Shown here: piece after piece, positions 2,941-20,950 of the stretch
Layout of the letters: each line of letters opens with the position of its first letter
Numbering within the stretch: position 1 is the first letter of the stretch
Assembly (NCBI RefSeq): GCF_006385175.1
Contig: NZ_VFIY01000006.1
Span: 186,001 to 250,000, forward strand
DNA length: 64,000 nucleotides
DNA from: Emcibacter nanhaiensis
Lineage (GTDB): Bacteria > Pseudomonadota > Alphaproteobacteria > Sphingomonadales > Emcibacteraceae
Direction of reading: 5' to 3'
Program-made: the position numbers and the translations under genes
The notes under the pieces: generated by a model
Database searches by the model: none
What the model was told of the DNA's origin: nothing
Seen by the model: only the letters and a program-made list of their open reading frames with translations

Positions 2941-3300
2941 GTGAGTGTGCGAAAAGAGGCTATAGTTACAATTGAAGGCACTTTGGGTGTCAAAGATTCT
3001 AAAGATATTGGCCAGCGCCTATATGAGGCACTCGATAAGCACGAATGTGTCACCATTGATGTGCATGAGCAGGCAGAGTGCAGCATCGGCATAGTGCAGA
3101 TCATAATCTCGGCGCAGCGTACAGCGCGCCATCTTGGCCGCGAGCTCAGACTCGCCGACACGCCATCCCCTGCATTTAAAACAATTCTCATCCGGGCGGG
3201 GTTGCTCTCGCCCGATGGGGGTGCCCGTACGGAAGAGGAACAATTCTGGGTTTCCTCTGCTGCTGAATTGGACAGAGAATTGGACGGAGTGACATCATGA
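2941..3300 (+). CDS. STAS-domain protein heading the chemotaxis operon
   Basis: A 119-residue single-domain protein of the STAS (SpoIIAA/anti-sigma antagonist) fold. Strand-helix spacing is typical, with a conserved region about residues 35-60 (CVTIDVHEQAECSIGIVQ) where antagonists carry the phosphorylatable Ser; here Cys and Ser occur at that loop (EQAECSIG). In rhizobial che operons a small protein at this position (CheS) helps CheY dephosphorylation by binding CheA, so a regulatory role on CheA or CheY is plausible but inferred. The start is GTG at 2941; a second GTG two codons on is an alternative. Its stop overlaps the cheY start in an ATGA junction, so translation is coupled. Confidence 0.8.
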   Translation: MSVRKEAIVTIEGTLGVKDSKDIGQRLYEALDKHECVTIDVHEQAECSIGIVQIIISAQRTARHLGRELRLADTPSPAFKTILIRAGLLSPDGGARTEEEQFWVSSAAELDRELDGVTS

Positions 3301-3665
3301 GCAAGACGATTTTAACCATCGACGATTCCGCGTCGATCCGCCAGTTGATTTCCCTGACCCTGGGCGGGGCTGGCTATAATGTTATCGAAGCAGAAGACGG
3401 TGCGGAAGGGTTTGAGAAAGCCAAAAGCAATTCTGTCAATGCGGTGATCACGGATCTCAACATGCCTGTGATGAATGGTATCGAGTTCATCCGCAAATTC
3501 CGCGGCGACCCGTCCAGCACCGGCGTGCCGGTTCTCTTTCTCACCACGGAATCCTCTGATGACGTGAAACGAGAGGCGAAGGAAGCCGGCGCAACTGGAT
3601 GGATTACCAAGCCTTTCAATCAGGAACAGCTCCTTGCCGTAATTAAAAAGGTCGTTGGCGCATGA
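3297..3665 (+). CDS. cheY: CheY single-domain response regulator
   Basis: A 122-residue receiver domain without an output domain. Seen: the acidic pair at residues 9-10 (TIDDSAS), phosphoacceptor Asp53 in ITDLNMP, the switch Thr in FLTTES and the conserved Lys in TKPFN. It is expected to take phosphate from the CheA encoded just downstream and to act on a flagellar motor or another output. It overlaps both neighbours by 4 bases (ATGA at each end). No CheZ or CheD phosphatase is visible in the operon. If the motor is not encoded nearby, the output target cannot be told from the window. Confidence 0.95.
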   Translation: MSKTILTIDDSASIRQLISLTLGGAGYNVIEAEDGAEGFEKAKSNSVNAVITDLNMPVMNGIEFIRKFRGDPSSTGVPVLFLTTESSDDVKREAKEAGATGWITKPFNQEQLLAVIKKVVGA

Positions 3666-5677
3666 CAACTCCCGATCCCACAGAGGTATTTCTTCAGGAA
3701 GCGCGCGAACTGCTCGATACTCTGGAACAGGCACTTCTTGATCTTGAACAGTCACCGGACAACCGCGATTTGGTCGACAGCGCCTTTCGGGCCCTGCATA
3801 CCATCAAAGGGTCCGGCTCAATGTTTGGTTTCGATGACGTCGCGGGCTTTGTGCACGAATTTGAGACGGCTTTTGACCGTGTTCGCAAAGGAGAGGTTGC
3901 TCCTTCTGCAGGTCTCATCGCTGTGGCGCTTTCTGCCAAGGATCATGTGCACCGGCTGATTGAGGAACCTGACCGGCATGTGGCGGCAGGGGAACCCATC
4001 CTCAAGGCGCTGCGTCAGATTGTTGAATGCGGAAACGAGGAGGAAATATCGGAAGATATTGCCGCGGAACAACCCGGGGAGATGGAGACCGGCCTTCAAA
4101 CCTGGCATATTGTTTTCCGCTTGCCGGCAGATGCCCTGGCGCTGGGGACGGACCCCCTGTTGCTGTTGGATGAGCTCCGCGAACTCGGCAGCTGTGAGAT
4201 CATGGCATTGACGGACGGCGTTCCGCTGCTGGATGAGATTGACCCCGAGATCTGCCATCTTGCCTGGGACGTGACCCTGACCACAAGCCAGCCGCGTCAG
4301 GCCATTGAAGATGTTTTCATGTTTATTCTGGATGACATGGAGCTGACCATCGAGCACGTTACCGGACAGGAAACGTCGCTGGGCGCTGGTGAGGGACAGG
4401 TGATGCGGGATGATGCCGCCACCGCTGAGGTTGCCCAGGCGAATGCGGCACTCCGGAAGGAGGGCAGCAACGGGGCGGTTGAGAAAACCGTTTCCTCCCT
4501 GCGGGTTCCTGCCGAACGACTGGACGAACTCATGGACCGGGTGGGTGAACTGGTGATTGCCCAGGCCCGCCTGTCGCAGATTGCCGTAACCAGCGAAGAC
4601 CTTACTCTCAAGGCGGTTGCCGAAGAGCTTGAACGCCTGTCCTCTGGCCTGCGTGACACAACGATGGGAATTCGTATGGTGCCCATCGGGACGTTGTTCG
4701 GTCGCTTCAAGCGCCTGATTTTTGATCTGTCGCGTGAGCTCGACAAGGAAATTGAATTTCTTACCTCCGGCGAGGAAACCGAGCTGGACAAAACCGTCAT
4801 CGAACGCCTCGCCGATCCGCTGGTTCATATCATTCGCAATGCCGTGGACCATGGTCTGGAGGCGCCGGAGAAACGCACACAAGCCGGTAAAGCCGCCCGA
4901 GGTACCGTTCGTCTTGCTGCCGTTCATTCCGGTGCGGAAGTGGCTATTTCCATTATTGATGACGGCGCCGGACTGGATGCAGCACGCATTCGCGCCAAGG
5001 CGGTGGATGCAGGACTGATTGAGGAAGATGCGCAGATCCCGGATCAGGAGCTGTACCAGTATATTTTCCACCCCGGCTTCTCGACCGCGGCTGAAGTCAC
5101 GTCTTTGTCGGGCCGGGGCGTAGGCATGGATGTCGTCAAGCGTACCATGGATGCCCTGCGCGGCAGTATTGACGTGGCCTCGACCCCTGGTGAAGGGACG
5201 ACGGTGACCCTTCGGCTGCCGCTGACGCTGGCGATCATTGACGGCATGCTCGTGCGGGTCGGGAATGCGCGCTATTCCATCCCGCTGTCAACCGTTGAAG
5301 AATGCGTCGAATTGCCCGCCTCTGCAGAGGCCGGCGACACGGGCCGCAATTTCCTTAATATCAGGGGCAGTCTTGTGCCGTTCCTGCGACTGCGCGAACT
5401 GTTCAACGTTGATGTGCCGCCGGACCTCCATCAAAAAGTTGTAGTGGTTTCTTCCGGTGACTTCCGCGTTGGTCTCGTCGTTGATCAGATCATTGAAAAC
5501 AGTCAAACCGTTATCAAGTCGTTGAGCAAGTTTCATGCAGATGTGGAGACCTTTTCCGGGGCGACAATATTGGGCGACGGTACAGTGGCCCTGATCCTTG
5601 ACGTTGGACATCTGGTGAGTTTTGGCCAGACCTTTGAAAGTCGATTTCGCACAGACAATGCGGGGAGGGCGGCATGA
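3662..5677 (+). CDS. cheA: CheA chemotaxis histidine kinase
   Basis: A 671-residue cytoplasmic kinase that phosphorylates CheY and CheB in response to receptors. Domains: N-terminal HPt with phosphoacceptor His46 (RALHTIKGSGS); a variable P2-like region about 135-260; the dimerisation helices about 280-340 (LRVPAERLDELMDRVGEL); the ATPase with its N box near residue 388 (IIRNAVDHGLE) and G box near 486 (GRGVGMDVVKR); and a CheW-like regulatory domain from about 530 to the end. Length is normal for the family. The frame overlaps cheY and the following cheW by 4 bases each. Confidence 0.97.
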   Translation: MTTPDPTEVFLQEARELLDTLEQALLDLEQSPDNRDLVDSAFRALHTIKGSGSMFGFDDVAGFVHEFETAFDRVRKGEVAPSAGLIAVALSAKDHVHRLIEEPDRHVAAGEPILKALRQIVECGNEEEISEDIAAEQPGEMETGLQTWHIVFRLPADALALGTDPLLLLDELRELGSCEIMALTDGVPLLDEIDPEICHLAWDVTLTTSQPRQAIEDVFMFILDDMELTIEHVTGQETSLGAGEGQVMRDDAATAEVAQANAALRKEGSNGAVEKTVSSLRVPAERLDELMDRVGELVIAQARLSQIAVTSEDLTLKAVAEELERLSSGLRDTTMGIRMVPIGTLFGRFKRLIFDLSRELDKEIEFLTSGEETELDKTVIERLADPLVHIIRNAVDHGLEAPEKRTQAGKAARGTVRLAAVHSGAEVAISIIDDGAGLDAARIRAKAVDAGLIEEDAQIPDQELYQYIFHPGFSTAAEVTSLSGRGVGMDVVKRTMDALRGSIDVASTPGEGTTVTLRLPLTLAIIDGMLVRVGNARYSIPLSTVEECVELPASAEAGDTGRNFLNIRGSLVPFLRLRELFNVDVPPDLHQKVVVVSSGDFRVGLVVDQIIENSQTVIKSLSKFHADVETFSGATILGDGTVALILDVGHLVSFGQTFESRFRTDNAGRAA

Positions 5678-6183
5678 CAGCGATGAATGAGAGCCAGGTT
5701 GCAGATACTGCCATGACAGCGCTGACTGTCGGCTTGCAGGGAGAAATCTTTGCTATTGAAGCGGAGAGCGTGCGGGAAATCCTGGACGTGGTGCCGATCA
5801 CGGAAGTGCCCAATGCCCGGGCCTTTGTTGGCGGTCTTATCAATGTGCGTGGCCGCGTGGTGCCGCTGGCTGACCTGCGGGTGATGTTCAACATGGACCG
5901 GCCGCCGCCGGACGAGGACACCCGCATTGTGGTTATTGAAATTGATCTGGACGGCGAACCCACCATCACCGGGATTCTTGCTGACAAGGTTCACGATGTT
6001 ACGGATATCGATGCGATCTCCGTTGAAGAAGCGCCGAAAGTCGGGATGCGCTGGCGTCCCGAGTTTATCCGAGGAATCGGTAAACGCGGTGAAGATTTTA
6101 TCATAATCCCAGACATGGGGCGAATATTTGGCGAAAAAGTGGGCGATACAATGGCCCCGAGTTCGGATGAAAGGACTGAGTAA
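5674..6183 (+). CDS. cheW: CheW coupling protein (first copy)
   Basis: A 169-residue CheW-domain adaptor that links receptors to CheA. Typical motifs: a strand with FAIEAESVREIL near residues 25-36, then VRGRVVPLADLR near 58-69, then the C-terminal GMRWRPEFIRGIG segment and DMGRIF. It overlaps the cheA stop by 4 bases, and its TAA is followed directly by the ATG of the receptor gene. A second, divergent CheW lies 2.1 kb downstream, so this operon may build arrays with two kinds of coupling protein. Confidence 0.95.
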   Translation: MTAMNESQVADTAMTALTVGLQGEIFAIEAESVREILDVVPITEVPNARAFVGGLINVRGRVVPLADLRVMFNMDRPPPDEDTRIVVIEIDLDGEPTITGILADKVHDVTDIDAISVEEAPKVGMRWRPEFIRGIGKRGEDFIIIPDMGRIFGEKVGDTMAPSSDERTE

Positions 6184-8307
6184 ATGAGACTTACACTGAA
6201 GGTTAAACTGGGGGCGGTGTTTGCCACCATTGTCGTGCTTTCGGCCGGCGGCATGCTTCTTGGCATCAATAACCTTGGAAGCATCAAGGATAGTTATGAC
6301 GGTGTGATCAACAACCAGATCGCCCGCATCAGGCTGATCAACCAGCTTGATGCGACCGCCGTGCGCATCGACAGGGACGAAAAGGATATCGTTCTTGCTT
6401 CGGATGAGGAGACCGTCAACAAAGTTGCCGTCTCCATCGAACAGAGAAAGTCAGAGGTCGATGATCTCTATACAAAAGTTTACGCGCTTTCCGGGGCGGA
6501 AGGCCGTGCCAACCTTGATGCTTTCAAGAAACAATGGAACAAGTTCCTGGAGAGCGATCTCAAAGTACAGAAACAGGCCCGGCTGCAATCCGCCGAAAAG
6601 GCGCGCCGCCTGGCGCAGGGCGACACCCGGAAAACCTACGATGCTGTCCTGAATAAAGTGAACGCGCTTGAAGAACATCTTCAGGCAAATGTAACAAAAT
6701 CCAGGGACAGTGGTGCAATGCAACGGTATGTGGCCGTCTCTGATGTTACCGATTTCGTGCTGCGTGTTCGCGCAAATATGCTCAACGTGCTGGTATATCT
6801 GAATGATCCGGCGCAGCAGGAGCGGTTCGCGGAGATCGCCAATACGCGCATTTCTGAGCTTAATATGCAGATTGCAAAGGCTGAGGGACTGCTGACAGGG
6901 ACTGACCTGGCTGCCCTTCGTGAGGTCAAGATGGCTGTTGACGCCTGGACGCCGCTGGTCAAGGAGACAGTGGCCAAGGGTGTGGAAAATGGCAGCTACT
7001 ATGCCGGTGTTGCCGGTACTGAAGGTGCGCAATATCGTCGCGAGGCATTCAATATCCTCGGTGACATGACGGTTCGCATGCGTGAAGCGATCGTACAGGC
7101 GCAAGCCGACAATGCTGCCGCTTATGACTCCGCGCGCACATTCATGCTGGGTCTGCTGATCGCCATATCATTGATCGCGGCTATCTCAGCGACCTGGATC
7201 GTGCTGAATATTTCCCGCGCGGTGACCAGTGCGGTGAATCTTGCCCGCTCCGTCGCTGACGGGGACCTGAACGCCGTTGCGGAAGTCAAGTCCAATGATG
7301 AAATCAAAGACCTGATTGATGCCTTGAACTCAATGGTGGCAAAGCTGAAAAATATCGTCGGCGAGGTGACCGGTGCAACCCGCAATGTTGCAGCCGGCAG
7401 CCAGGAAATGGCCGCCGCAGCCGAACAGCTGAGCCAGGGTGCGACCGAACAGTCATCTTCAACAGAAGAAGCCTCTTCCTCTGTTGAACAGATGGCGGCC
7501 AACATCAAGCAGAATGCGGACAATTCCGGGCAGACTGAAGAAATTGCCCGCACCGCAGCAGTTGATGCCGAGAAATCTGGGTCGGCTGTGGCCGATGCGG
7601 TCAAGGCCATGGAGACCATTGCAGAGAAAATCCTGATCGTGCAGGAAATTGCCCGCCAGACCGACCTGCTGGCCCTCAATGCGGCTGTGGAAGCAGCCCG
7701 CGCGGGTGAACATGGCCGCGGCTTTGCGGTCGTGGCCTCCGAGGTCCGCAAACTGGCGGAAAGAAGTGCAGCCGCTGCCGAGGAAATCTCGGGTCTTTCC
7801 GGTGATACAGTAAAGGCAGCCCAGAGCGCAGGCGAGATGCTGTCCAAGCTGGTGCCGGATATCCAGAAGACCGCCGAGCTGATCTCCGAAATTTCTGCGG
7901 CCAGCAACGAACAGAATGCGGGGGCAAGCCAGATCAACGCCGCGATCCAGCAGCTTGACAAGGTCACCCAGCAGAATACGTCAGCAGCCGAGGAAATGTC
8001 CTCGACAGCTGAAGAGCTGGCCAGCCAGGCAGAGCAGATGCAGCAGACCATCAGCTTCTTCAAGCTGGATGAAAATGAGATGCGAGGCACTCGTTCGACC
8101 CCTGCCAGCCGCCGTCAGGCTGCTGTCTCCCCACATGCCGCACAACTCGACCATCTGGCTGAACAGCTGCGCCATGGCTTCCCGACCGGAAGGGGGACCG
8201 CGAGTGATCGTGGTGAGGCAGCTTCCACAGGTGGCTTTGCTTTGGACATGGGGGATGGCAAAGATGCGCTTGATGGCGAATTCACCCGCACGAAAGGCGT
8301 GGCATGA
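6184..8307 (+). CDS. Methyl-accepting chemotaxis protein, transmembrane
   Basis: A 707-residue receptor. TM1 is at about residues 7-28; a roughly 290-residue all-helical periplasmic sensor follows, long enough for a two-bundle (HBM-like) domain; TM2 is at about 318-340; HAMP comes next ([17 protein letters not shown]); then the long cytoplasmic coiled coil with the canonical hairpin tip ([18 protein letters not shown], continuing [15 protein letters not shown]). Ligand unknown. The C-terminus is a flexible tail of about 80 residues ending in TKGVA and has no NWETF-type CheR/CheB tether. It starts directly after the cheW stop and overlaps the second cheW by 4 bases. Confidence 0.95.
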
Positions 8308-8810
8308 GCAGGGACGTCGCCATAACGGATGCGGCCCAGTATGTAACCCTCGGTATCGCGAGCGAATTGCTCGCGGTGCCGGTGGAACGGGTGCAGGAGA
8401 TCCTGGAATCGCGGCAGGTCAGTCGCCTGCCGCATGCGCCTGAAAGCCTGCTGGGGCTGATTGACGTCAGGGGCATGAGCGTACCGGTTGTCGATCTGAG
8501 GCTGAAGCTTGGCTTTCCCCAGTCGGAAGATACGCACGACACCCGGATTGTGGTGTTGTTTGTTGAAATGAACGGACGGCAACTGACATTTGGGCTCAAG
8601 GCCGACCGGGTGTTCGAGGTTACGGTGCTGGACAGCAGTGAACTTGAAGCGTCGCCGGAAGTCGGGATGGAATGGCAATCTGAATGTATTGCCGGCATAG
8701 GCCGCCGTAACGGCAACTTCGTCACTGTACTCGATCTGGACAGCCTGTTCGACGGCGCCGAGGCATCGTTTGGCGTCCTGACTGAAACAGACAATGCGGA
8801 AGTTGCCTGA
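8304..8810 (+). CDS. cheW: CheW coupling protein (second copy)
   Basis: A 168-residue CheW-domain protein. It shows [19 protein letters not shown] near residues 23-41, [19 protein letters not shown] near 51-69 and a C-terminal DLDSLFDG. It shares the fold with the first CheW of the operon but differs through most positions, so it is not a recent tandem duplicate. The ATGA overlap with the receptor suggests it is translated with that receptor and may be its dedicated adaptor. A gap of 119 bases, the largest in the operon, separates it from cheR. Confidence 0.93.
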
Positions 8811-8929: not shown

Positions 8930-9808
8930 ATGGGGCACGTCGAAACGAGTGCAAAGGCTGCGACGGAAGCGAAAAATCGCCTGTCCGATGAGACCTACAT
9001 GCGCATCGCCAGCATTATAAACAAGCATTCCGGCATCAAGCTACCGCCAGCCAAGCGTCTTATGGTGGAAGGTCGTTTGCGAAAGCGCGCGCAGATCTGT
9101 GGTCACAACAGTCTGGACGACTATTGCAGTTATCTGTTTGAAAACGGTGGGTTGGACGACGAGTTTGTTCACCTGGTAGATGCAATTACCACCAACAAGA
9201 CGGACTTTTTCCGGGAGCCGGATCACTTTACACTGCTCAGGAACAGCCTCCTTCAGTCGTTAATCGGTCTGCGTCGGAGCGGCGCCAGAGCCAAGCTGAA
9301 AATATGGAGCGCGGCAAGTTCCAATGGTGCGGAAGCCTATACCATCGCGATGGTAATGGCGGAGGAAATGGCCCGGCATGGAAATATGGAGTTTTCTATT
9401 CTTGGAACCGATATTTCCTCGGCGATGGTCACCGCTGCGCGGCGGGCAATCTATCCGACCGAGATGATCACCCCTGTATCGGAAGAGCTGCAGGAAAAAT
9501 ATATTATGCGGGCTCGAATTCCGGAGCGGCAGGGCCAGGTTCGCATCGTCCCTGAATTGCGGCGTCGGGTGCGCTTTGAACTCCTGAACCTGATGAATGA
9601 GTCTTACGCCTATGATCGCGACGTGGACGTGATTTTTCTGCGCAACGTATTGATTTATTTCGATAAACCGACACAGGAGGCGGTGACATGCCGAATGATG
9701 GAGCATTTGCGGCCCGGAGGCTACCTCTTTCTCGGCCATTCTGAGTCTATGATTGGGACCAATCTCAGGCTGCATCAAGTGGCGCCGGCGGTGTTCCAGA
9801 AGGTTTAA
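8930..9808 (+). CDS. cheR: CheR receptor methyltransferase
   Basis: A 292-residue S-adenosylmethionine-dependent glutamate methyltransferase for receptor adaptation. The N-terminal helical domain covers about residues 20-85 ([20 protein letters not shown]). The SAM domain contains [18 protein letters not shown] near 124-141, where the usual motif reads close to SAGCSTGEEPYS, so the loop is slightly divergent. The family signature [11 protein letters not shown] is near 237-247, and [12 protein letters not shown] is near the end. A ribosome site (GAGGAAC) precedes ATG 8930. Confidence 0.95.
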
Positions 9809-9830
9809 AATCCAGAGGGTGAAAAGCGAT

Positions 9831-10955
9831 ATGGCAAATAGTTCTTTCCATTCCGCAAAAAACAGGAAAATCCGGGTGCTGATCGTGGACGATTCAGCGA
9901 CCGTGCGTCAATGCCTCAGCGAGATTATTGCCAGCGACCCCAATCTGGAGGTCATGGCAACCGCGTCGGACCCTTATGTGGCAGCGGAGCGTATCCGGAA
10001 AGAAATTCCTGACGTTATGTTCCTCGATATTCAGATGCCGCGCATGGACGGCCTGACGTTTTTGCGCAAGATCATGGCGCAACGGCCCATTCCTGTTGTG
10101 ATCTGTTCGACATTGACTGAAGAGGGGTCAGCAGCCTTTCTGCAGGCTCTGGAAGCCGGGGCGGTTGATGTCATTACCAAGCCCCGTGTCGATACGGCTC
10201 ATGCCCTGAGTGAAAGCCGGACCATGATTTGTGATGTGGCGCATGCTGCTGCTCAGGCGCGACTGCCGCGACACCGACGGGCGCTGGAACCGGTCAAGGT
10301 TGAGCCCAAGCTGACTGCCGACGCCATTCTGCCGTCCAGCCGCTTTCGCCGGACAGCAACAGCCGTTAGCAATCAGATTGTCTGTATCGGCGCGTCCACA
10401 GGCGGAACCGAAGCCCTGCGCGTCATTCTGACGGCGCTGCCCGCCAACTGTCCGGGCATCGTTGTCGTCCAGCATATGCCCGAGAAATTCACTGCAGCGT
10501 TTGCCAAACGTCTCGACGGCATATGCGCCGTAAGGGTCAAGGAAGCCGAGACCGGGGATTTAATCCTGCCCGGACAAGTGCTGATCGCCCCCGGCAACCA
10601 GCACATGCTTATCGAACGAGTGGGGGGGAATTTCCGGTCTGTCATCAAGGGAGGACCGCAAGTTTCGAGACACCGTCCTTCTGTTGATGTGCTTTTCCGC
10701 TCTGCCGCACAACAGGCCGGGCCCAATGCGTTGGGCATTCTCCTGACCGGGATGGGAGATGATGGTGCCAATGGTCTTCTGGAGATGAAAACGGCCGGTG
10801 CACAGACGGTGGCTCAGGATGAAGAAAGCTGCGTCGTTTTCGGTATGCCTAAGGAAGCGATCGAGCGGGGGGCGGCCGATAGAGTTGTCGGACTCGACCG
10901 GATTGCCCATGTGATTATGGGAGCCGCCGTCGGGCAGTCAGGATGCGCGTCATGA
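9831..10955 (+). CDS. cheB: CheB protein-glutamate methylesterase/deamidase
   Basis: A 374-residue response-regulator esterase. The receiver domain has acidic Asp20-Asp21 (LIVDDSA) and phosphoacceptor Asp66 (MFLDIQMP). A linker of about 50 residues leads to the CheB esterase with nucleophile Ser in [11 protein letters not shown], His in VVQHMPEKF and Asp in [11 protein letters not shown]. The open frame reaches back to 9753, but that ATG lies inside cheR. ATG 9831 gives a clean receiver N-terminus and lies 22 bases after the cheR stop, so I chose it. Confidence 0.95.
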
Positions 10956-12712
10956 TGCCAGCTGCCATTCCAGATACGTCTTTCCAGCCTTTGTCTGCCG
11001 GCGTGCAGGAAACCTGCACAAAGATTGAGGAGCGGCTTGCAGCCTCCCGGTCTGTCATTGAACAGGATTTCTCGGATATGGGAGCCAGGCTCGCCGACAG
11101 TGCGCGACTGTTGAACGAGATTTCGGCAACCCACGCCAACACGGCGGCTACCCTGGAAAGCGAGGAGTTCAAGCGGGCCATATCCCAACTCAGGGGAATC
11201 CGCGACAAAATACTCGAAATGATCCAGCCGGTGGCAGACAGCCACGATTACCTGGGGCATCTGGCAAATATGGCTGCAGCCATCTCCAAGCCCATTTCAA
11301 ACCTGTGCAGGACTGTCAAGACAATCGGAATCGTCGCTGTCAACGCCCGGATTTCGGCGGCAAGCCTGAATGCCGGTAAAGAAGACTTCGAAGTTTTCAC
11401 CATGGGCATGACAAAGCTGGCTCTGAGCGCGGCAGACGCGGTCCAGGCGCTTTCGACATCATATGATGAAATGAGCAGCAGCCTGGCAATGGCCCGTACC
11501 GCCAATGCCGACCTCTCTGCCCGACAAAGCAGCAGCGTGAATCAGATACTGACCCGGCTCAACAGTCATCTGGAGGTGCTTGAGGAACAAAACGCCCGCG
11601 CCGCTACTAAATCTGTCGAATATGCGCAACTCCTTCGCCAAATAACCAGTCGCATCGGCGCTGCTGTTTCCGCACTTCAGATCGGCGACACCACACGCCA
11701 GCGGATTGAGCATGTAGAGCAGGCCCTGGCCACGTTGCGTACACATGAGAATGACAGTCATGATGGCGGCGGGCAGGAGGCGATTATCGCTGTGGTATGC
11801 AGTCTGCAGGTTGAGCAACTGGAGGATGCGGTTTCTGAATATGATGGCCGGATCGCTGACCTTATTGCGACCTTGCGGGCGCTGACCAGTGATGCCTCGG
11901 TTCTGGTTCGGGAAAGTGATAATAGCGCCGACAGTCTGCTGTCCTCCGGCGGGACGGCTCTCGCTGATCTGGTGGACGACCTGCATCGTCTTCATGCTTT
12001 GTTTGCGGAGGTCCGGGACACCAGGGCAGGCCTGGCAGATGTTGCCGAAAAGGTCATGCGAACCTTTTCCGTCATGACCACCCATATCGATGCCGTCCAC
12101 AAGATTGAAGAAGACATGCGGCTGGTCAGCCTGAATACAACAATCCAGTGCGGACGACTGGGGACGGAAGGGCGCACCTTGAGCGTCATTGCCCAGGAGT
12201 TGCACGGCTTGACAGGGGAAACGGTGACCGCCGCCAGCGCCATTATGGAAATTCTTGCTGATGCGGATGGCATGATCAAAGAAACAGTGGCAGAAGAGGA
12301 AGGCTCTGAAGGGCTTGATCTTGAGACGGTGGAGACAGAGGCGTCATCTGCCACGGAGGTGCTTGAAGCCATCGTAAGCCGTACCCATGAAGCCGTAACC
12401 AATGTGGGACGTCAGGCACCGCATGCAATCGGCCTGATTGAGGAGACGGTAAATAGTGTGATTTTGCGTCAGGAGCTCAGCGGGAACTGGCGCTGGGCAA
12501 AAGGCGAACTTGAGGCGTTGTCCGCAACAAATATCGAGTGGGCGGGTACTCCTGCCGCGCTTAACCTCCTGTCAGAGTTACGCGCTCGCTATACGATGGA
12601 TAGCGAGCGGAATGTCCATGATCGTCTGCTGGGGGAACCCTCCGACGTGGCATCTGGTGACCCGGGGAATGCTACCGCCCTGGAAATTGATGTGGAAGAC
12701 TTGTTATTTTGA
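10952..12712 (+). CDS. Unassigned soluble coiled-coil protein with two degenerate MCP-tip motifs
   Basis: A 586-residue, almost entirely helical protein without signal peptide or membrane segments. Two stretches resemble the hairpin tip of chemoreceptors. One is at about residues 125-165 ([18 protein letters not shown]). The better one is at about 388-428 ([20 protein letters not shown], then [15 protein letters not shown]), which follows the receptor pattern LNxxIxxxRxGxxGRxxxVIAxE. Between them is [15 protein letters not shown]. Neither has the exact canonical tip. As the last gene of the operon, overlapping the cheB stop in an ATGA junction (the reason for choosing 10952 over 10943), it is probably a chemosensory component: a cytoplasmic receptor, scaffold or phosphatase. 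No named function is justified. Confidence 0.75.
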
Positions 12713-14169: not shown

Positions 14170-15447
14170 ATGGTTTATCGGAGCACTAACATGCAGTTGA
14201 ATCTGAAACTTATTGGCGCGGCTTTCTGGTTTCTGCTTCTTATGGGGCCGGGTGCGGCTTTTGCTGAAGAGCATGAAGGCGAGCATGTCAAACTGGTCCC
14301 GGACCAGGCCCTTTCACTGGGTGAGGTAATTGACCGGGCTGCAGAGCTGGCCCCGGATCGTTTTATGGTCGACGCCCGGAACAAGACCGGCAAGGCCTAT
14401 GGTCGCAAGGCGTCGAGCTTCTTTGCCGGCGCCCCCGAAATATCCGTGCATCACCAGAATGATTTCCTGATCTCGGACCAGGGGCTTCGGGAATGGGAGG
14501 GCCGGCTGGATCTTCCCATCTGGATGCCGGGGGAAAAACGGGCCTGGAAAGACCGGGCCCGGGCGGCAGGGTCTGAGGCGGATGCCTTTCGCAACCAGCT
14601 GGTCTGGGCTGTCGCCGGCGAAGTCCGCGACCTGGTCTGGCAGGTGAAGCTTGCCGAAGCCTCGCTTGACGAGAGCCGGGCAGCACTGGAGACAGCGGAA
14701 AAGCTTCTGGACGATGTGGAAAAACGCATCAGGGCCGGCGACCTTCCCAAGAACACTGTTCTCCTCGCCCGCCAGGAACTGGCCGGCCGCCGCATCGCCA
14801 TCAAGGGTGCGGAACGGGACTATGTGGACAGTGCCATGATGTACAAGACTTATACCGGCCTCGACCGGATCCCAACCAATATTGCCGAACAGAGACAGGA
14901 AGTCGAGGATGACTATGCCGTCCCGCCGGTGATCTATGCCCGGCGACAGATGGACTATTACCAGGCGGAATATGACAGCGAGCGGGCAAGCTGGTCCAGT
15001 TCACCCACCATTACCGTGGGCGTGAAACGGGAGCGCGGCGGTTATGACGACCGTTCCATCGATTCCGTCAGCTTCGGGCTGACGGTCCCCCTGGGGAGTG
15101 CGACTCATTCGGCCCCGCGCCGGGCCGAGGCAGCTGAGAAGCTGGCCAACGCCGAGCGTGAACTGGCCATGGCCATGCGGGAACAAAAACTTGCCCTGCA
15201 TGAAGCGGAACATGAACTGGAAGTGTGCCTGATCCAACAGGAGATCACTGACGAACATTTCCGCATGGCTTCCGAAAACCTGCGTCTTGCCGAGCGGGCC
15301 TTCGAGCTTGGCGAGAGCGACCTCATGGACCTGCTCAGGGTCCGGGAACAATATTTTCAGTCCTCCGGTGTTCACAGCCGACAGAAACTGCAATGCAGTC
15401 TCGGCGTGGCCCGCTATAATCAGACCAAGGGGATTCTTCCGCAATGA
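14170..15447 (+). CDS. TolC-like outer-membrane factor of a metal efflux system
   Basis: A 425-residue outer-membrane efflux protein of the CzcC/CusC type. The N-terminus is a signal peptide (hydrophobic core FWFLLLMGPGAAFA) followed by a His/Glu-rich EEHEGEHVK. The rest shows the two TolC-type helical repeats, with coiled-coil segments around residues 120-215 and 310-400. It forms the exit duct for the adaptor and pump encoded directly downstream (4-base overlap with the adaptor). ATG 14170 has AGGGAAGG in front; ATG 14191 is an in-frame alternative that gives a more compact signal peptide. Confidence 0.85.
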   Translation: MVYRSTNMQLNLKLIGAAFWFLLLMGPGAAFAEEHEGEHVKLVPDQALSLGEVIDRAAELAPDRFMVDARNKTGKAYGRKASSFFAGAPEISVHHQNDFLISDQGLREWEGRLDLPIWMPGEKRAWKDRARAAGSEADAFRNQLVWAVAGEVRDLVWQVKLAEASLDESRAALETAEKLLDDVEKRIRAGDLPKNTVLLARQELAGRRIAIKGAERDYVDSAMMYKTYTGLDRIPTNIAEQRQEVEDDYAVPPVIYARRQMDYYQAEYDSERASWSSSPTITVGVKRERGGYDDRSIDSVSFGLTVPLGSATHSAPRRAEAAEKLANAERELAMAMREQKLALHEAEHELEVCLIQQEITDEHFRMASENLRLAERAFELGESDLMDLLRVREQYFQSSGVHSRQKLQCSLGVARYNQTKGILPQ

Positions 15448-16544
15448 TCAGACTGTTGAGTATCGCCACCGTTGCCGCAGCACTGGCTTACAATCCTGTA
15501 ATGGCCGAGGAGACTATCTCACTCGATCATGCGCGATTGAAACCGCTCGGTATTGAAACCGCAACACCCGAACCGGTCGACACCACCTGGAGTATAGCCT
15601 GGCCGGCAAAAGTGGTCATTCCCAATAACCGCATTGAAATCGTCACTTCGCTTTATCCGGGGCTGGTCAAGGCCCTGCATGTGGCAGAAGGCGACCGGGT
15701 AGCAGCCGGCGATAAGCTGGCAGATATTGCGAGCCCCGCTTTCCTCGAGGCCCAACAGGATTATCTGGATGCCCTGGCGGCGCTGGAGATGGAGCGTAAA
15801 AATTTCGCCCGGGACAAGATGCTGCTTGAGGAAGGCATTATTTCTGAAAAACGCTTTCAGGCGGCCAGGGTTTCCCTGAGCCAGGCGGAAAACGGTTATG
15901 CCCGGCAAAAGCAGGCGCTGCTGTTCGCCGGCATGGATGCCGCCCGGGTGGCAGAACTGGACCGGACGCGCCGGATTAGTCCGACACTGGAGCTCAGGAC
16001 CTCGCTTGACGGGACCGTACTTGAACAGATGGTGCGCACGGGCGAGCCTGTTGACGAGGCGACCGCTCTTTACAGTATCGGCCGCACCGATGTGCTGTGG
16101 CTGGAAATTCATGTCCCCGTCAGCCGTATGGGGCGGGTCAGTACGGGTGCCCGGGCGCGGCTTGAGGACACGGATGTGGAGGGCAAGGTGATTTCCATCG
16201 GCCGAATGATCCATGACGAGGACCAGGGTGTGCTGGTCAGGGCCTCTGTCACGGAAAAGACGGACAGATTGCTTCCCGGCCAGTTTGTGACCGTCAAGCT
16301 GGAACAGAAATTTTCCAACGGCAATGGCTACCGGGTGCCGCGGCAGGCGATTTTCCGGGATGCTGAGGGGGCCTATCTGTTTCGCCAGATCAGTGGCGGC
16401 TTTGCCCTGCTGCCGGTCGACATCATAGCCGAAGAGCAGGATGCTGTGGTGATCCGGGCGGATATTGCCAAGGGTGATCGCGTGGCTGTCAGCGGCATCA
16501 GCGTGCTTAAGGGGATCTGGCAGGGTCTGGGGAGCGACGAATAA
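15444..16544 (+). CDS. RND periplasmic adaptor (CzcB/CusB-type)
   Basis: A 366-residue membrane-fusion protein with an N-terminal signal sequence (AAALAYNPVMA). Order: a barrel-sandwich half with AEGDRVAAGDKLADIASPAF near residues 77-96; a helical hairpin about 98-165; the second lipoyl half (GTVLEQMVRTGEPVDEAT near 188-205); a beta-barrel with LLPGQFVTVKLE; and a membrane-proximal domain. It bridges the pump and the outer-membrane duct. It overlaps the upstream gene by 4 bases and the pump gene by 1 base. No methionine-rich metal-binding N-terminal tail like that of E. coli CusB is visible. Confidence 0.9.
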   Translation: MIRLLSIATVAAALAYNPVMAEETISLDHARLKPLGIETATPEPVDTTWSIAWPAKVVIPNNRIEIVTSLYPGLVKALHVAEGDRVAAGDKLADIASPAFLEAQQDYLDALAALEMERKNFARDKMLLEEGIISEKRFQAARVSLSQAENGYARQKQALLFAGMDAARVAELDRTRRISPTLELRTSLDGTVLEQMVRTGEPVDEATALYSIGRTDVLWLEIHVPVSRMGRVSTGARARLEDTDVEGKVISIGRMIHDEDQGVLVRASVTEKTDRLLPGQFVTVKLEQKFSNGNGYRVPRQAIFRDAEGAYLFRQISGGFALLPVDIIAEEQDAVVIRADIAKGDRVAVSGISVLKGIWQGLGSDE

Positions 16545-19500
16545 TGCTGAAAAAGCTGATACAGTTTTCCCTGACCCAGCGCCTGATGATTTTGCTGGTC
16601 AGTTTGTTGCTGGTCGGTGGCGGCTGGTCGGCGTTCCGGGCCACGCCCATTGACGCCTTTCCGGATGTCTCCACCACCCAGGTCAAGATCATCCTCAAAG
16701 CCCCGGGCATGACACCCGAGGAAGTGGAATCCCGCATTACCGCCCCGGTGGAGGTGGAAATGCTGGGACTGCCCAACCAGAGCATTCTGCGCTCGATCAC
16801 CAAATATGCCCTGACCGACATTACCATCGATTTTGAGGAAGGGACCGATATTTACTGGGCCCGGCAGCAGGTGTCCGAACGCCTTGGCGCCATTATGGAG
16901 GACCTGCCCGACGGGGTGAGCGGCGGTATCGCGCCCATGACCACGCCGCTGGGCGAAATGTTCATGTTCAGCATTGAAGGTGACGGCATGAGCCTGATGG
17001 AAAAACGCTCCCTGCTGGACTGGGTGATCCGCCCGGCGCTGCGGACAGTACCCGGGGTGGCCGACGTCAATGCCCTTGGCGGTCTGGTGCGCAGTTTCGA
17101 GGTGGTGCCGGACAACAAGGCACTGTCGGCCCATCGTATTCCCCTGTCCGACCTGATTGACGCGCTGGAGCGCAACAATCGCAACGACGGCGCAGGGCGT
17201 CTGGACGAAGGGGAAGAAGTGCTTCTCGTCCGGACCGGCGGCAGCATCAACACCCTGGAAGATGTGGAAAATATCGTGGTCAAGGCTCATGCCACCGAAC
17301 CGATCCGGGTGCGGGATCTGGCGACGGTCCAATTGGGCGCCATAACCCGTTACGGCGGCGTCACCGCCAACGGCACGGGAGAAACTGTGGAAGGGCTGGT
17401 GCTGGGTCTGAGGGGCGCCAATGCCCAGGATGTGGTGGAAGGGGCGCGGGAGCGGCTTGCCGCCATCGAACCGAGCCTGCCGGAAGGCGTGAGCCTCAAT
17501 ATCTTTTACGATCGCGGCAAGCTGATCGACAAGGCCATCACCTCCGTCTCCAAGGCGCTGATGGAAGCCATCGTTCTGGTGCTGATCCTGCTGGTGGTGT
17601 TTCTGGGGGATCTGAGGGCAGCACTTACCGTGGCCCTGATCCTGCCACTGGCGGCACTGGCGACCTTTATCCTGATGAACCGGTTCGGCATGTCGGCCAA
17701 CCTGATGAGCCTCGGCGGACTGGCCATTGCCATCGGCATGCTGGTGGATGCGGCCGTGGTGGTGGTGGAGAATATCGTGACCCACCTGAGCCATAAAAAG
17801 GATGGTCGGCAGCCGCGCCTGCATATCATTTACCGGGCGGTGAGCGAAGTCTCCCTGCCGATGGCGTCGGGGATTTTCATCATTATCATTGTGTTCCTGC
17901 CGCTGTTGTCCCTGCAGGGACTGGAAGGGAAACTGTTCGTACCGGTGGCGCTGACCATTGTCTCCGCCCTGTCGGCTTCCCTGATCCTGTCTCTGACGGT
18001 GATTCCGGTGATTGCCTCCTTCCTGTCCTTCAAGACGGAGCATGAGGAAACCTGGCTGGTGCGCAAGCTGCAGAAAGGCTACAAGCCTCTGCTGGCCTGG
18101 GCGCTGGAAAATACCAAATCTGTTGCCGTCATCTCGGCGGCGCTGCTGCTTGCCGCGGCAGTGACCTATACCCAGGTCGGCAAGACCTTCATGCCGGTGA
18201 TGGACGAGGGCGATATCATCCTGCAGGCGGAAAAACTGCCCTCGATCTCCCTTGAGCAATCGCTGGAAATTGACGTCCTGACGCAAAGGAAACTGATGGC
18301 GGAAGTGCCGGAAGTGATCGGCTATGTCTCCCGCGCCGGCTCGGATGAACTCGGTCTTGATCCGATGGGATTGAACGAAACAGACGGCTTTCTGGTCCTC
18401 AAGCCGCGGGAGGAATGGAGTGTCGACAGCAAGGATGAGCTGATTGAAAAGATCCAGGAAGTGATCAAGGACATTCCCGGCGTCGGCTTCAACTTTACCC
18501 AGCCGATTGACATGCGGGTGTCGGAAATGCTGACCGGGGTGCGCGGCGATATTGCCATCAAGATCTTCGGCGAGGACCAGGACCAGCTCAACCGGATCGG
18601 CGAACAGATTGTGGGCCTGATGAACGGCATCGACGGCGCCGGCAATATTTACAAGCCGGCCAATGACGGCGCCCAGTATCTGCAACTGACCGTCGACCGG
18701 CTGGCGGCAGGACGGCTGGGGCTTAATGTGGATGACCTGACCCGGGCGCTCCGGGCCCAGGTCGAGGGCATCACCATCGGCACGGTCTACGAAGGCGCCC
18801 GGCGTACACCGTTGCTGGTGCGCGGGGCCGCTGATCTGCGCGACAATCCGGCCCGCTTCAGCAACCTGACTTTGCCATTGCCCGACGGCCGCAACATCCC
18901 GCTCACCCAGGTGGCAAAGATCGAGCGTATCGAAGGACCGGTATCGATCAAGCGCGAAAAGGGCTCCCGTATGGTGGTGGTGATCGGCAATGTGAAGGGC
19001 CGCGACCTGGTTGGCTTTGTTGACGAGGCCAAACAGCTTGTGGCGGAAAGACTGTCACTGCCGAGCGGCTATTATCTGGAATGGGGCGGGCAGTTTGAAA
19101 ACCAGCAGCGCGCCTCCAAGCGACTGGCGCTGGTGGTGCCGGTGGCGCTCGGCCTGATCTTCCTGCTGCTGTTTTCCACCTTCCGCTCGGTGCGCCAGGC
19201 CTTGCTGGTGCTCAGCAATATTCCCTTTGCCGTGACCGGCGGCATTATCGCCCTGTGGCTCAGTGGTGAATATCTGTCGGTGCCGGCGTCGGTGGGCTTT
19301 ATCGCCCTGCTGGGGATTGCGGTGCTCAACGGGGTGGTGATGGTGACTTATTTCAATCAGCTTAAGGAGATGGGCCGGAGCATGCATGAGATCATCACCG
19401 AGGGCGCCAGCCGCCGTCTGCGTCCCGTGTTGATGACGGCCAGTATTGCCGCTTTCGGGCTGGTGCCGCTCTTGCTGGCTACCGGCCCCGGTTCGGAAAT

Positions 19501-19618
19501 CCAGCGCCCGCTGGCGATAGTGGTGATCGGCGGGCTGTTTACTTCAACCCTGCTGACGCTGGTGCTGTTGCCGATCCTTTATCGTCGATTTGCCTTTGCC
19601 GAAACCAAGGGAGTCTAA
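16544..19618 (+). CDS. Heavy-metal efflux RND pump (CzcA/CusA family)
   Basis: A 1024-residue proton-driven inner-membrane transporter with the usual twelve membrane segments and two large periplasmic loops. Seen: TM1 about 12-30; the HME-RND N-terminal pattern TPIDAFPDVSTTQVKI near 30-45; the TM4 region AIAIGMLVDAAVVVVEN near 396-412; and DELGLDPMGLNETD in the second porter half. The TM4 segment lacks the DFG of Czc-type zinc/cobalt pumps and is nearer the AIGxxVDAA pattern of copper/silver pumps. I treat this as a hint, not proof. Length is standard. Confidence 0.93.
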   Translation: MLKKLIQFSLTQRLMILLVSLLLVGGGWSAFRATPIDAFPDVSTTQVKIILKAPGMTPEEVESRITAPVEVEMLGLPNQSILRSITKYALTDITIDFEEGTDIYWARQQVSERLGAIMEDLPDGVSGGIAPMTTPLGEMFMFSIEGDGMSLMEKRSLLDWVIRPALRTVPGVADVNALGGLVRSFEVVPDNKALSAHRIPLSDLIDALERNNRNDGAGRLDEGEEVLLVRTGGSINTLEDVENIVVKAHATEPIRVRDLATVQLGAITRYGGVTANGTGETVEGLVLGLRGANAQDVVEGARERLAAIEPSLPEGVSLNIFYDRGKLIDKAITSVSKALMEAIVLVLILLVVFLGDLRAALTVALILPLAALATFILMNRFGMSANLMSLGGLAIAIGMLVDAAVVVVENIVTHLSHKKDGRQPRLHIIYRAVSEVSLPMASGIFIIIIVFLPLLSLQGLEGKLFVPVALTIVSALSASLILSLTVIPVIASFLSFKTEHEETWLVRKLQKGYKPLLAWALENTKSVAVISAALLLAAAVTYTQVGKTFMPVMDEGDIILQAEKLPSISLEQSLEIDVLTQRKLMAEVPEVIGYVSRAGSDELGLDPMGLNETDGFLVLKPREEWSVDSKDELIEKIQEVIKDIPGVGFNFTQPIDMRVSEMLTGVRGDIAIKIFGEDQDQLNRIGEQIVGLMNGIDGAGNIYKPANDGAQYLQLTVDRLAAGRLGLNVDDLTRALRAQVEGITIGTVYEGARRTPLLVRGAADLRDNPARFSNLTLPLPDGRNIPLTQVAKIERIEGPVSIKREKGSRMVVVIGNVKGRDLVGFVDEAKQLVAERLSLPSGYYLEWGGQFENQQRASKRLALVVPVALGLIFLLLFSTFRSVRQALLVLSNIPFAVTGGIIALWLSGEYLSVPASVGFIALLGIAVLNGVVMVTYFNQLKEMGRSMHEIITEGASRRLRPVLMTASIAAFGLVPLLLATGPGSEIQRPLAIVVIGGLFTSTLLTLVLLPILYRRFAFAETKGV

Positions 19619-19620
19619 TA

Positions 19621-19932
19621 ATGTCTCTTTGCCTTCTGACTGTCATCACACCCGTAACGCTTGAGGATACATTTGTCGACTGGCTCATGGACCACTCACA
19701 AATTGACGGTTTTACCAGCATACCGGTCTCGGGCCACGGCGCGTCAGAAAGCCGGATGACACTGGCGGAAAGGGTTTCGGCCCGGTCGCGTCGGGTCATG
19801 TTCCAGCTCCATCTCGAGCAGGCGGCGGCGGAGCAGGTGCTTGCCGACATTAAGAGCGGCTTTGCAGGCACCGACCTGCATTACGTGCTGTCCCCGATAC
19901 TGGAGGCGGGTCATCTTGAACAGAATGATTAG
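19621..19932 (+). CDS. DUF3240-family small protein of the efflux operon
   Basis: A 103-residue soluble protein of ferredoxin-like (PII-like) appearance: alternating strands and helices, with FVDWLMDHSQIDGFTSIPVS near residues 19-38 and LHLEQAAAEQVLADIKSGFA near 61-80. Members of DUF3240 are regularly found beside HME-RND pumps; a regulatory or metal-binding role has been suggested by that association only. It starts 2 bases after the pump stop, and its final codons overlap the next start. Confidence 0.75.
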   Translation: MSLCLLTVITPVTLEDTFVDWLMDHSQIDGFTSIPVSGHGASESRMTLAERVSARSRRVMFQLHLEQAAAEQVLADIKSGFAGTDLHYVLSPILEAGHLEQND

Positions 19933-20281
19933 AAAATGCTTTTCCCTGACCGGCCTGTGGCTGGTGCTGTCACTGGCGCCCTTGGGGGTGAGCGGTGCCG
20001 TATATGCCTTGTCAGAACCGGAAGAATTATACCGGTCCCATCACCTCAGTCCGGAACAACTGATTAAACTCCAGCAGGAGGGGGACATCCTCAGCCTGGA
20101 GGAAATCATCAGATTATTGAAGCGCAGTGGAGACGACCGGTTGCTTGAAGTGGAACTTCTGGAACGAAAAGGCTATCTTTTCTATAAGGTAGAGATTCTC
20201 GAAAAGTCGGGAATTGTCAAAAAATACATGCTGGATGCCCGAACCGGACAACCGGTCACCCGACATGATCAGGGAGAATGA
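19925..20281 (+). CDS. Exported PepSY-domain protein
   Basis: A 118-residue protein with a signal peptide (LTGLWLVLSLAPLGVSGAVYA) and one PepSY domain (LSLEEIIRLLKRSG near residues 58-71, then VELLERKGYLFYKVEILEKS and a final DARTGQ). PepSY proteins are periplasmic and are frequently encoded next to PhoQ/CusS-type kinases and metal efflux genes, where a modulating role on the kinase is plausible. An upstream ATG at 19841 lies inside the DUF3240 gene and would destroy the signal peptide, so I chose 19925. The next gene starts immediately after the stop. Confidence 0.8.
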   Translation: MIRKCFSLTGLWLVLSLAPLGVSGAVYALSEPEELYRSHHLSPEQLIKLQQEGDILSLEEIIRLLKRSGDDRLLEVELLERKGYLFYKVEILEKSGIVKKYMLDARTGQPVTRHDQGE

Positions 20282-20950
20282 ATGCGTCTGCTGCTGGTGG
20301 AAGATGATCCGAAACTAGGTCCGCAACTGCAGAAGGATCTGCAGAACCGCGGCTATGCGGTGGACCTGACGGCGTCGGGCGAAGAGGCTGAATTTATGGG
20401 GGCAGAGGTTCCCTACGGCATCATTATCCTGGATCTGGGTCTGCCTGACAGGTCGGGTATCGAGGTTTTGAAAGCCTGGCGCCGGGAAAATATGACGGTG
20501 CCGGTTCTGATCCTGACCGCCCGGGACAGCTGGCAGGAAAAGGTCGAGGGGTTTCAGGCCGGGGCCGATGATTATCTGGCCAAACCTTTTCATTTCGAGG
20601 AACTTGTGGAGCGGCTCGGGGCGCTGATCCGCCGGGCCAGCGGTCTCGCGTCGCGGACGCTGGAGGCCGAGGGTTTTGTGCTGGACCAGGACAATCAGGC
20701 GGTGGTCCTGGCGGATGGAAGTTCCCATGTCCTGACCGGGACCGAATATCGGCTGCTGCATTATCTGATGCTGAACCCGGGTAAGATATTGTCCAAAACC
20801 ACTCTGACGGAACATGTCTATGAGTTCGATGCCGACAAGGACAGCAATGTGATCGAGGTCTATATCCGCCGGTTGCGGCGCATTCTGCCTGACGGGCTGA
20901 TCCGCACCCTGAGAGGGCAGGGCTATATTTTCGGGGGAGGAGGCAGATGA
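20282..20950 (+). CDS. OmpR/PhoP-type response regulator
   Basis: A 222-residue regulator with a receiver domain (acidic residues in LLVEDDPK, phosphoacceptor Asp51 in IILDLGLPD, Lys in LAKPFHF) and a C-terminal winged helix (LTGTEYRLLHYLMLNPGKI, then SNVIEVYIRRLRRIL and the RTLRGQGYIF end). With the adjacent kinase it forms a two-component system that most likely controls this efflux operon. It follows the PepSY gene without a gap and overlaps the kinase start by 4 bases. Confidence 0.93.
   Translation: MRLLLVEDDPKLGPQLQKDLQNRGYAVDLTASGEEAEFMGAEVPYGIIILDLGLPDRSGIEVLKAWRRENMTVPVLILTARDSWQEKVEGFQAGADDYLAKPFHFEELVERLGALIRRASGLASRTLEAEGFVLDQDNQAVVLADGSSHVLTGTEYRLLHYLMLNPGKILSKTTLTEHVYEFDADKDSNVIEVYIRRLRRILPDGLIRTLRGQGYIFGGGGR

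Follow-up and report, generated by a model that had tools for sequence, protein, structure and literature searches.

A tandem chemoreceptor-like protein of Emcibacter nanhaiensis is a candidate CheY~P phosphatase

Introduction

In CheZ, the aspartate and glutamine of a DxxxQ helix coordinate the water that attacks phosphorylated CheY (CheY~P), and the protein is described as a dimer with a separate C-terminal helix and CheY-binding region (PMC3510030 and PMC7750401, respectively). DXXXQ proteins beyond CheZ occur in rhizobial che operons, since S. meliloti CheT, a DXXXQ che-operon protein, is reported in a review (PMC12654446) to enhance dephosphorylation of one CheY~P. From the receptor side, engineered Tsr constructs have joined two receptor subunits in one chain (PMC4692393), and the Che2 system of R. 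leguminosarum has been assigned to the F8 class with 34H receptors (PMC8429497 and PMC7617929) and reported to affect nodule maturation, not free swimming (PMC7617929). Among the titles and abstract openings listed by searches of open-licence papers, none describes a receptor with a CheZ site. Here we examine a 64,000-nucleotide stretch of the Emcibacter nanhaiensis genome (contig NZ_VFIY01000006.1, positions 186,001 to 250,000; hereafter the window), and in particular the final gene of its che operon, whose 586-residue product, P0001, appears to combine features of a chemoreceptor with those of CheZ.

We propose that P0001 acts on the CheY~P of its own F8-like operon as a soluble phosphatase of tandem build and chemoreceptor descent, a reading to which we give a probability of about 0.6 and which is drawn from sequence comparison and structure prediction. 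Like CheZ (PF04344; E. coli structure 1KMI), P0001 carries DxxxQ on a helix after a hairpin turn, a flexible linker and an acidic C-terminal peptide (...SQDQVDDLL.. in E. coli CheZ, ...DVEDLLF in P0001), but CheZ is a shorter, dimeric protein with no receptor tip seen, whereas P0001 has two hairpins of the methyl-accepting chemotaxis protein (MCP) type in one chain and reads IGDTTRQ where CheZ reads FQDITGQ. With MCPs (PF00015; Tsr and the soluble T. maritima receptor) it shares a hairpin with the tip LN....C.RLG..GR...V.A.E., yet it is without sensor, HAMP or membrane part, its tip glutamate is replaced, and it adds a second hairpin, the CheZ-like motif and a ..LF tail. A set of single-hairpin proteins described below resembles it in motif, in a 115-residue register, in tail type and in residence in che operons, mostly near cheY; these differ in having one hairpin, a canonical tip and, in 9 of 25, a hydrophobic stretch. 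CheT, which we liken to P0001 by description, belongs to an F7 system; its probable R. leguminosarum form has 129 aa and no receptor tip that we could see. The single-chain Tsr receptors are laboratory constructs, of which P0001 would be a natural, diverged counterpart.

Results

A CheZ-like DxxxQ helix between two receptor tips

The features of P0001, by position in the window, are as follows.

10952..12712, + strand: P0001, 586 aa (open reading frame, alignment, AlphaFold2)
10991..11755, + strand: N-terminal hairpin, residues 14-268, turn 139-142 (AlphaFold2; match to single-hairpin profile)
11333..11398, + strand: decayed N-terminal tip, residues 128-149 (hhalign against MCPs; Asn131 kept in 33 of 56 members)
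11675..11719, + strand: CheZ-like motif [15 protein letters not shown], residues 242-256, with D246 and Q250 the proposed catalytic pair (conservation; hhalign against CheZ; helical wheel)
11774..12523, + strand: C-terminal hairpin, residues 275-524 (hhalign against MCPs; AlphaFold2 of the C half)
12125..12205, + strand: C-terminal tip, residues 392-418, LN....C.RLG..GR...VIA.EL (profile against the T. maritima receptor; Tsr overlay)
12590..12619, + strand: RYTMxxERxxH block, residues 547-556 (Y, T, M, E and R each kept in 53 to 55 of 56 members)
12683..12709, + strand: acidic C-terminal tail ...DVEDLLF, residues 578-586, a proposed docking peptide (survey of member endings)

The most conserved segment of the family is not a tip; it lies between the tips, at residues 242-256 ([14 protein letters not shown]), where all 56 aligned members agree at Q243, G245, D246, Q250, R251 and H254. 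The original prediction, made from the letters alone, had quoted a motif between the tips (residues 243-257), and this is the same, most conserved stretch. Because the 80 genome-contig relatives that we kept had been selected on the motif, a cleaner test of conservation comes from 15 members chosen independently of its pattern (P0001, G049, four more genomes of the class, plasmid members and the second open reading frame of L121), and D246 and Q250 are kept in all 15. Both CheZ proteins of the Emcibacter genome read FQDITGQR. In hhalign, for which percentages and E values refer to single comparisons throughout, the family aligns with a profile of 26 CheZ proteins of the class (187-396 aa) at 70.7% (E 3.8e-5), with DITRQRI placed on DITGQRI; reversed controls gave 8.3% and 21.4%, shuffling the motif columns gave 8.8 to 8.9% in five of five trials, and shuffled CheZ columns reached at most 0.2% against the family in ten of ten. 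The N half taken separately aligns with the 26 CheZ at 82.7% (reversed controls 1.6% and 2.2%), and in the C half no conserved pair was found at the place matching D...Q. As judged from a helical wheel only, D246 and Q250 lie on the face opposite the hydrophobic side, and the CheZ pair does likewise. Descent of the DxxxQ in place from the MCP segment EQ..GI.QIN was considered and rejected, as MCPs and CheZ (20.4%; reversed 4.4% and 1.3%) are misaligned at the pair. That MCP segment presumably lies closer to the tip, at about 90 residues by a hand count on the Tsr sequence.

Two receptor-type hairpins in one chain

P0001 almost certainly consists of two MCP-type hairpins in tandem, each with a decayed tip. 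The AlphaFold2 model, built with 49 family members, is almost entirely helix (mean pLDDT 86.3, pTM 0.66), with long helices at residues 14-68, 71-138, 143-241, 243-268, 275-330, 336-452 and 454-524, in agreement with the helical, 586-residue product of the last che-operon gene described in the original prediction. As the original prediction had claimed, no membrane segment was seen on reading the sequence, without a dedicated transmembrane predictor, and a Pfam scan at E 0.1 or better contained no membrane or sensor input domain. The two tip-like stretches, said to lie about 260 residues apart, are centred here on N131 and N395, 264 residues from each other. The second is the clearer: the family profile against the T. 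maritima receptor (E 2.2e-21) identifies the C-terminal tip as MCP, the C half matches an MCP profile built from just 7 sequences at 96.6% (E 5.9e-10), and residues 380-435 alone match PF00015 at E 3.6e-6, which bears out the receptor-like reading of that stretch. For the first the expectation held in part, in that residues 120-170 have no Pfam match while the N half aligns with MCPs tip to tip (60%, E 8.7e-5; reversed controls 0.4% and 0.9%). The two halves align with each other at 93% (E 3.4e-7), but the reversed controls of that comparison rise to 44% and 25%. An ordinary annotation of P0001 was set aside, as it returns just a sub-threshold MCP match: the PF00015 gathering cut-off (34.6) is not reached by the whole protein (27.1 bits) or by the C half alone (33.4), and 52 of the 56 members match PF00015 at E 1 or better. 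NCBIfam matches of the members are chiefly to MCP and coiled-coil models.

In the predicted fold the N-terminal hairpin turns at 139-142. The full model has no DSSP break at the second tip; an antiparallel hairpin with a turn at residue 403 does form when the C half is modelled alone (mean pLDDT 79.3). That half overlays the Tsr tip over 92 residues at 1.6 Å (20% identity, Z 11.2), a score no higher than those of unrelated bundles in the same list, so the MCP case for the C half rests on its sequence. Foldseek with the P0001 model gave no match at E 0.001 or better; among its top 50 rows are MCP chains (probability 0.96 to 1.00), and also pore-forming toxins and TTYH channels. VIA-align places such long helical bundles first, and with only the C half as query de novo bundles come ahead of the MCP rows; none of these bundles was accepted as a relative.

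The conserved glutamate of ordinary MCP tips (Tsr E385) is Lys or Arg in 45 of the 56 members and Gln in P0001, so that normal receptor function is doubtful; of the original suggestion of a cytoplasmic tandem receptor, the anatomy stands and the function does not fare as well. Four tip residues are missing in 24 of 56 members. At residue 400 of the C-terminal tip (window 12149-12151) we also observe a Cys kept in 49 of 56, where the MCP tips examined have Ala.

The chain ends in a tail that recurs through the family. An [LF]F ending is found in 49 of 55 members, 47 of which have at least two acids in the eight residues before the last, and the same acidic [LF]F ending occurs in 2 of 1580 other six-frame open reading frames of at least 250 aa. 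The RYTMxxERxxH block upstream of the tail has no counterpart that we could see in the single-hairpin sequences inspected.

Single-hairpin relatives share the motif, register and tail

When the N half was run against 299 genomes of the phylum, it brought up family members, ordinary MCPs and, in addition, single-hairpin proteins of about 330-530 aa. These have a canonical tip, followed in most by [LM]QF[QEG]DxxxQ, and end in [EDT][LF]F. Aligned, 21 of these match the N half of P0001 at 99.2% (E 1.4e-19) and its C half, tail included, at 98.6% (E 7.3e-16), with reversed controls at 2.7% or less. Their post-tip part aligns with CheZ at the pair (89.0%, E 2.3e-6; reversed 0.9% and 0.2%), and D and Q are kept in 21 of 21. 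The tip Asn and the motif Asp are 115 residues apart in 22 of 24 single-hairpin relatives, the distance from N131 to D246 in P0001; across the 56 family members the spacing is 115 in 31, 111 in 24 and 116 in one. Motif and tail go together: among 118 distinct open reading frames with an MCP-type tip, 24 have both, 93 have neither and one has the tail only, this last being a fused pair that carries the motif in its second half (a Fisher value for the co-occurrence overstates it, because the sequences are related). None of 95 ordinary MCPs that have a canonical tip carries the motif. Not all of the single-hairpin proteins are soluble, a hydrophobic stretch preceding the tip in 9 of 25 as judged by a crude pattern. 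P0001 has the characters of this set (tip, D at 115, Q four later, acidic ..[LFM]F tail) with two hairpins in place of one, and by sequence it is the tandem form of the single-hairpin relatives.

The gene neighbourhoods of the single-hairpin proteins (14 loci, L220-L233, and two named plasmids, L234 and L235) are likewise chemosensory: 16 of 16 examined loci lie in che operons, and the nearest recognised che gene to one side is cheY-like in 15 and cheB in one, the gap to the cheY-like gene being under 200 bases in 9 of 15. A CheZ profile search of these 16 stretches gave no match. A seventeenth locus, L189, has no che neighbour. In Aeromonas sp. BC14 (L234) and Pseudomonas sp. HR96 (L235) the order is receptor-like gene, response regulator, STAS, CheA, MCP, CheW, and the single-hairpin proteins are annotated as methyl-accepting chemotaxis proteins; the L220-L233 genomes are unannotated. 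Emcibacter itself has such a gene in its second che operon (L237:8499-9692; QYQDRSSQ, tail GIEMF), directly behind cheB, a position common to it and P0001; the membrane MCP of that operon ends DWSEF, unlike the relative's GIEMF.

Two further arrangements were noted. In a distant genome, a 674-aa frame (L236:2779-4800) holds two single-hairpin units, the first with a decayed motif; it is the second that keeps QFEDMVTQ intact and bears the tail, an order opposite to that in P0001. At L218 two single-hairpin genes stand in tandem (227-1213 and 1237-2250), the first with FEEPITQ for FEDMVTQ and without the tail.

Distribution and gene context of the P0001 family

A single-sequence protein scan of genome contigs with P0001 found no relative, and an alignment-based search was required. 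The family was drawn from G049, four more genomes of the class, 15 plasmid records and 349 genome-contig relatives, of which 9 plasmid records and 80 genome-contig relatives (fetched by a pattern containing the motif) were taken in; duplicates (L005, L041-L045), the broken L039 and matches of 100 bits or less were left out, and removal of sequences more than 75% identical reduced 95 sequences to the 56 of the family alignment (A3). In an even draw of the class, with three candidates scored per genome, a member by score occurs in 5 of 385 genomes, own genome included and one of them, G399, truncated. The 56-row alignment matched at least 174 of the 385, the five members at 197 bits and up, below which the listed matches fall to 78 bits or less, nearly all of them C-half MCP. 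The copy at L039/G399, whose frame ends after 374 aa with N hairpin and motif kept and which has two in-frame TGA codons in the longer match, is truncated or a pseudogene. Orthologs are annotated as hypothetical protein, chemotaxis protein or type VII secretion target, and we rejected the last as a coiled-coil artefact, EspC and WXG models matching just 7 or 8 of 56 members.

Context was scored as the nearest recognised che gene at 94 loci, a few genomes being counted twice: the gene lies behind cheB in the same orientation in 31, is convergent with cheB in 16 and divergent from STAS or cheY in 27; in 15 the stretch contains no recognised che gene, and 5 are arranged otherwise. The gene is thus not always last in such an operon, a regularity that had been put forward for survey. 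L077 and L085 (Agrobacterium) keep an intact motif without recognised che neighbours; at these and at L112, which also has no recognised che neighbour, the adjacent genes look unrelated by reading. In Sphingomonas sp. JC676 two family members stand in tandem behind cheB (L121:4119-5864 and 5911-7662).

The operon and its genome

P0001 closes a run of che genes on the + strand in the order STAS-cheY-cheA-cheW-mcp-cheW-cheR-cheB.

2941..3300, + strand: STAS-domain protein, first operon gene (PF13466, E 8.7e-8)
3297..3665, + strand: cheY, the operon's sole stand-alone receiver and proposed substrate (read from the open reading frame, no Pfam scan)
3662..5677, + strand: cheA (Hpt, H-kinase_dim, HATPase_c and CheW domains)
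5674..6183, + strand: first cheW (PF01584, E 2.9e-31)
6184..8307, + strand: membrane MCP (PF00015, E 2.1e-31; 4HB sensor, HAMP)
8304..8810, + strand: second cheW (PF01584, E 5.9e-30)
8930..9808, + strand: cheR (PF01739, E 2.5e-58)
9828..10955, + strand: cheB, start codon uncertain (PF01339, E 1.7e-68; Response_reg)

An in-frame ATG at 10943 would give P0001 589 aa, and the next larger + strand open reading frame, starting at 12930, looks AraC-like by reading. The operon's cheY served as the CheY query in both neighbourhood surveys. From the 54.6% identity of the window CheA to that of R. leguminosarum 3841 locus L111, which has the che2 gene order, and from the gene order here, we infer an F8-like chemosensory system. 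The R. leguminosarum 3841 ortholog of P0001 is at L111:5947-7689 (NC_008380, about 4268100-4269842). The Emcibacter genome also encodes CheD outside the window, by coordinates between cheR and cheB of the second che operon. An Rfam scan of window positions 1-22000 gave nothing at gathering level. Further along, window 14170-22275 holds an outer-membrane factor, a fusion protein and an RND transporter, then a small CutA-like open reading frame and a response regulator/kinase pair; judged by reading the open reading frames only, it looks like a metal efflux operon.

Discussion

If P0001 is a phosphatase, its two hairpins would pack as a single-chain version of the four-helix bundle of a receptor or CheZ dimer, and D246 and Q250, on the surface of this bundle, would reach into the active site of CheY~P and position the water for attack in the manner of CheZ. 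The protein's flexible C-terminal tail may capture CheY~P or, alternatively, dock on CheR, and the remaining C-terminal tip may position the enzyme at the array. Such an arrangement could have arisen by duplication followed by division of labour, in which the active site stayed with the N half, whose tip was mostly lost, and tip and tail stayed with the C half, whose DxxxQ disappeared. A CheZ-like phosphatase was one of three options offered in the original prediction (besides a tandem receptor and an array scaffold), which was partly upheld, two decayed tips in one chain being found; this option is the best supported of the three, because the motif quoted there resembles the CheZ DxxxQ helix, a reason not given at the time. 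The reason that was given, that no CheZ or CheD is encoded here, is weak, since the same genome carries both outside the window.

A number of observations weigh against a phosphatase. Emcibacter already encodes two CheZ, both outside the window; at a threshold of E 1, Pfam CheZ (PF04344) has no match to P0001, and the 25 Pfam families listed (of 172) for the 56 members do not include it; and CheZ is absent from the fold matches listed by Foldseek and VIA-align, although it may lie outside those listings. The C half gives no signal against CheZ (18.6%; reversed controls 21.1% and 41.8%). In a single sequence the motif is weak evidence: on a CheZ window matrix, 79 of 3306 background open reading frames score at least as high as the P0001 motif (two are CheZ themselves, and the other top listed are MCP segments matching D, not Q), and in 51 of the 56 members, not in all, the motif is the top-scoring window. 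HisKA_3 kinases also use DxxxQ, so the likeness between P0001 and CheZ could be convergent. Conservation of D and Q in the 21 single-hairpin relatives is biased, because the search profile includes the motif, and gaps of 392 to 2056 bases in 6 of the 15 cheY-linked loci leave room for another gene. Nor need the tail bind CheY: R. leguminosarum CheD (L158:1345-1899) ends SIEFF and the next gene (L158:1916-2305), probably CheT, ends DFDFF, both similar to the P0001 tail.

Other explanations have to be weighed against the same evidence. P0001 might be an array scaffold or decoy receptor whose tip joins the CheA/CheW lattice and tunes the array, the D246/Q250 helix being a protein contact. A docking site would equally give an invariant motif, the C hairpin is of MCP ancestry and the N hairpin likewise at profile level, and a che gene lies in the stretch at 79 of 94 loci; yet 45 of the 56 members have Lys or Arg in place of the tip Glu and the N tip has decayed strongly, while the DxxxQ is kept and its D and Q each align with their CheZ counterparts, so that we consider a scaffold unlikely. 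We give a smaller chance to a CheT-like adaptor, whose acidic ..LF tail would dock CheR (or CheB) while the hairpins present receptors or CheY, with catalysis absent or secondary. S. meliloti CheT, a DXXXQ protein, is reported to bind CheR (PMC12654446), the tails of the probable R. leguminosarum CheT and of CheD are of the same kind, and 31 of the 94 loci have the gene behind cheB in the same orientation. Against this, the genes of single-hairpin relatives that share the tail lie nearer cheY than cheR in 15 of 16 loci, and the two receptor-type proteins of the second Emcibacter operon differ in their tails (DWSEF and GIEMF). That P0001 is a degenerate cytoplasmic receptor without an enzymatic role, its CheZ likeness a convergence on a common helical pattern, strikes us as highly improbable: scores on the motif alone do overlap those of ordinary MCP segments, but the 115-residue register is common to the single-hairpin relatives, no ordinary canonical-tip MCP among 95 has the motif, and D and Q are intact in the L077 and L085 copies that have no che neighbours.

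We find it tempting to speculate further that P0001 and its single-hairpin relatives belong to a widespread class of CheY~P phosphatases that use the chemoreceptor hairpin as their scaffold, are annotated as receptors and have gone unrecognised, in which the tandem forms P0001 and L236 have split tip and catalysis in opposite ways; the chances for and against this wider proposal seem to us evenly balanced. Members of such a class would place the off-enzyme in or close to the array, 115 residues away from the tip that contacts the kinase, and array contact could gate dephosphorylation. Were the phosphatase reading true, a gene that now carries the three annotations listed above for its orthologs, together with relatives annotated as MCPs, would be the off switch of F8 systems, and counts of chemoreceptors would include phosphatases. 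It would also place CheZ-type catalysis and receptor hairpins on a common scaffold, making the origin of CheZ testable. P0001 may thus be an unrecognised "off switch" of chemotaxis signalling, built from a receptor.

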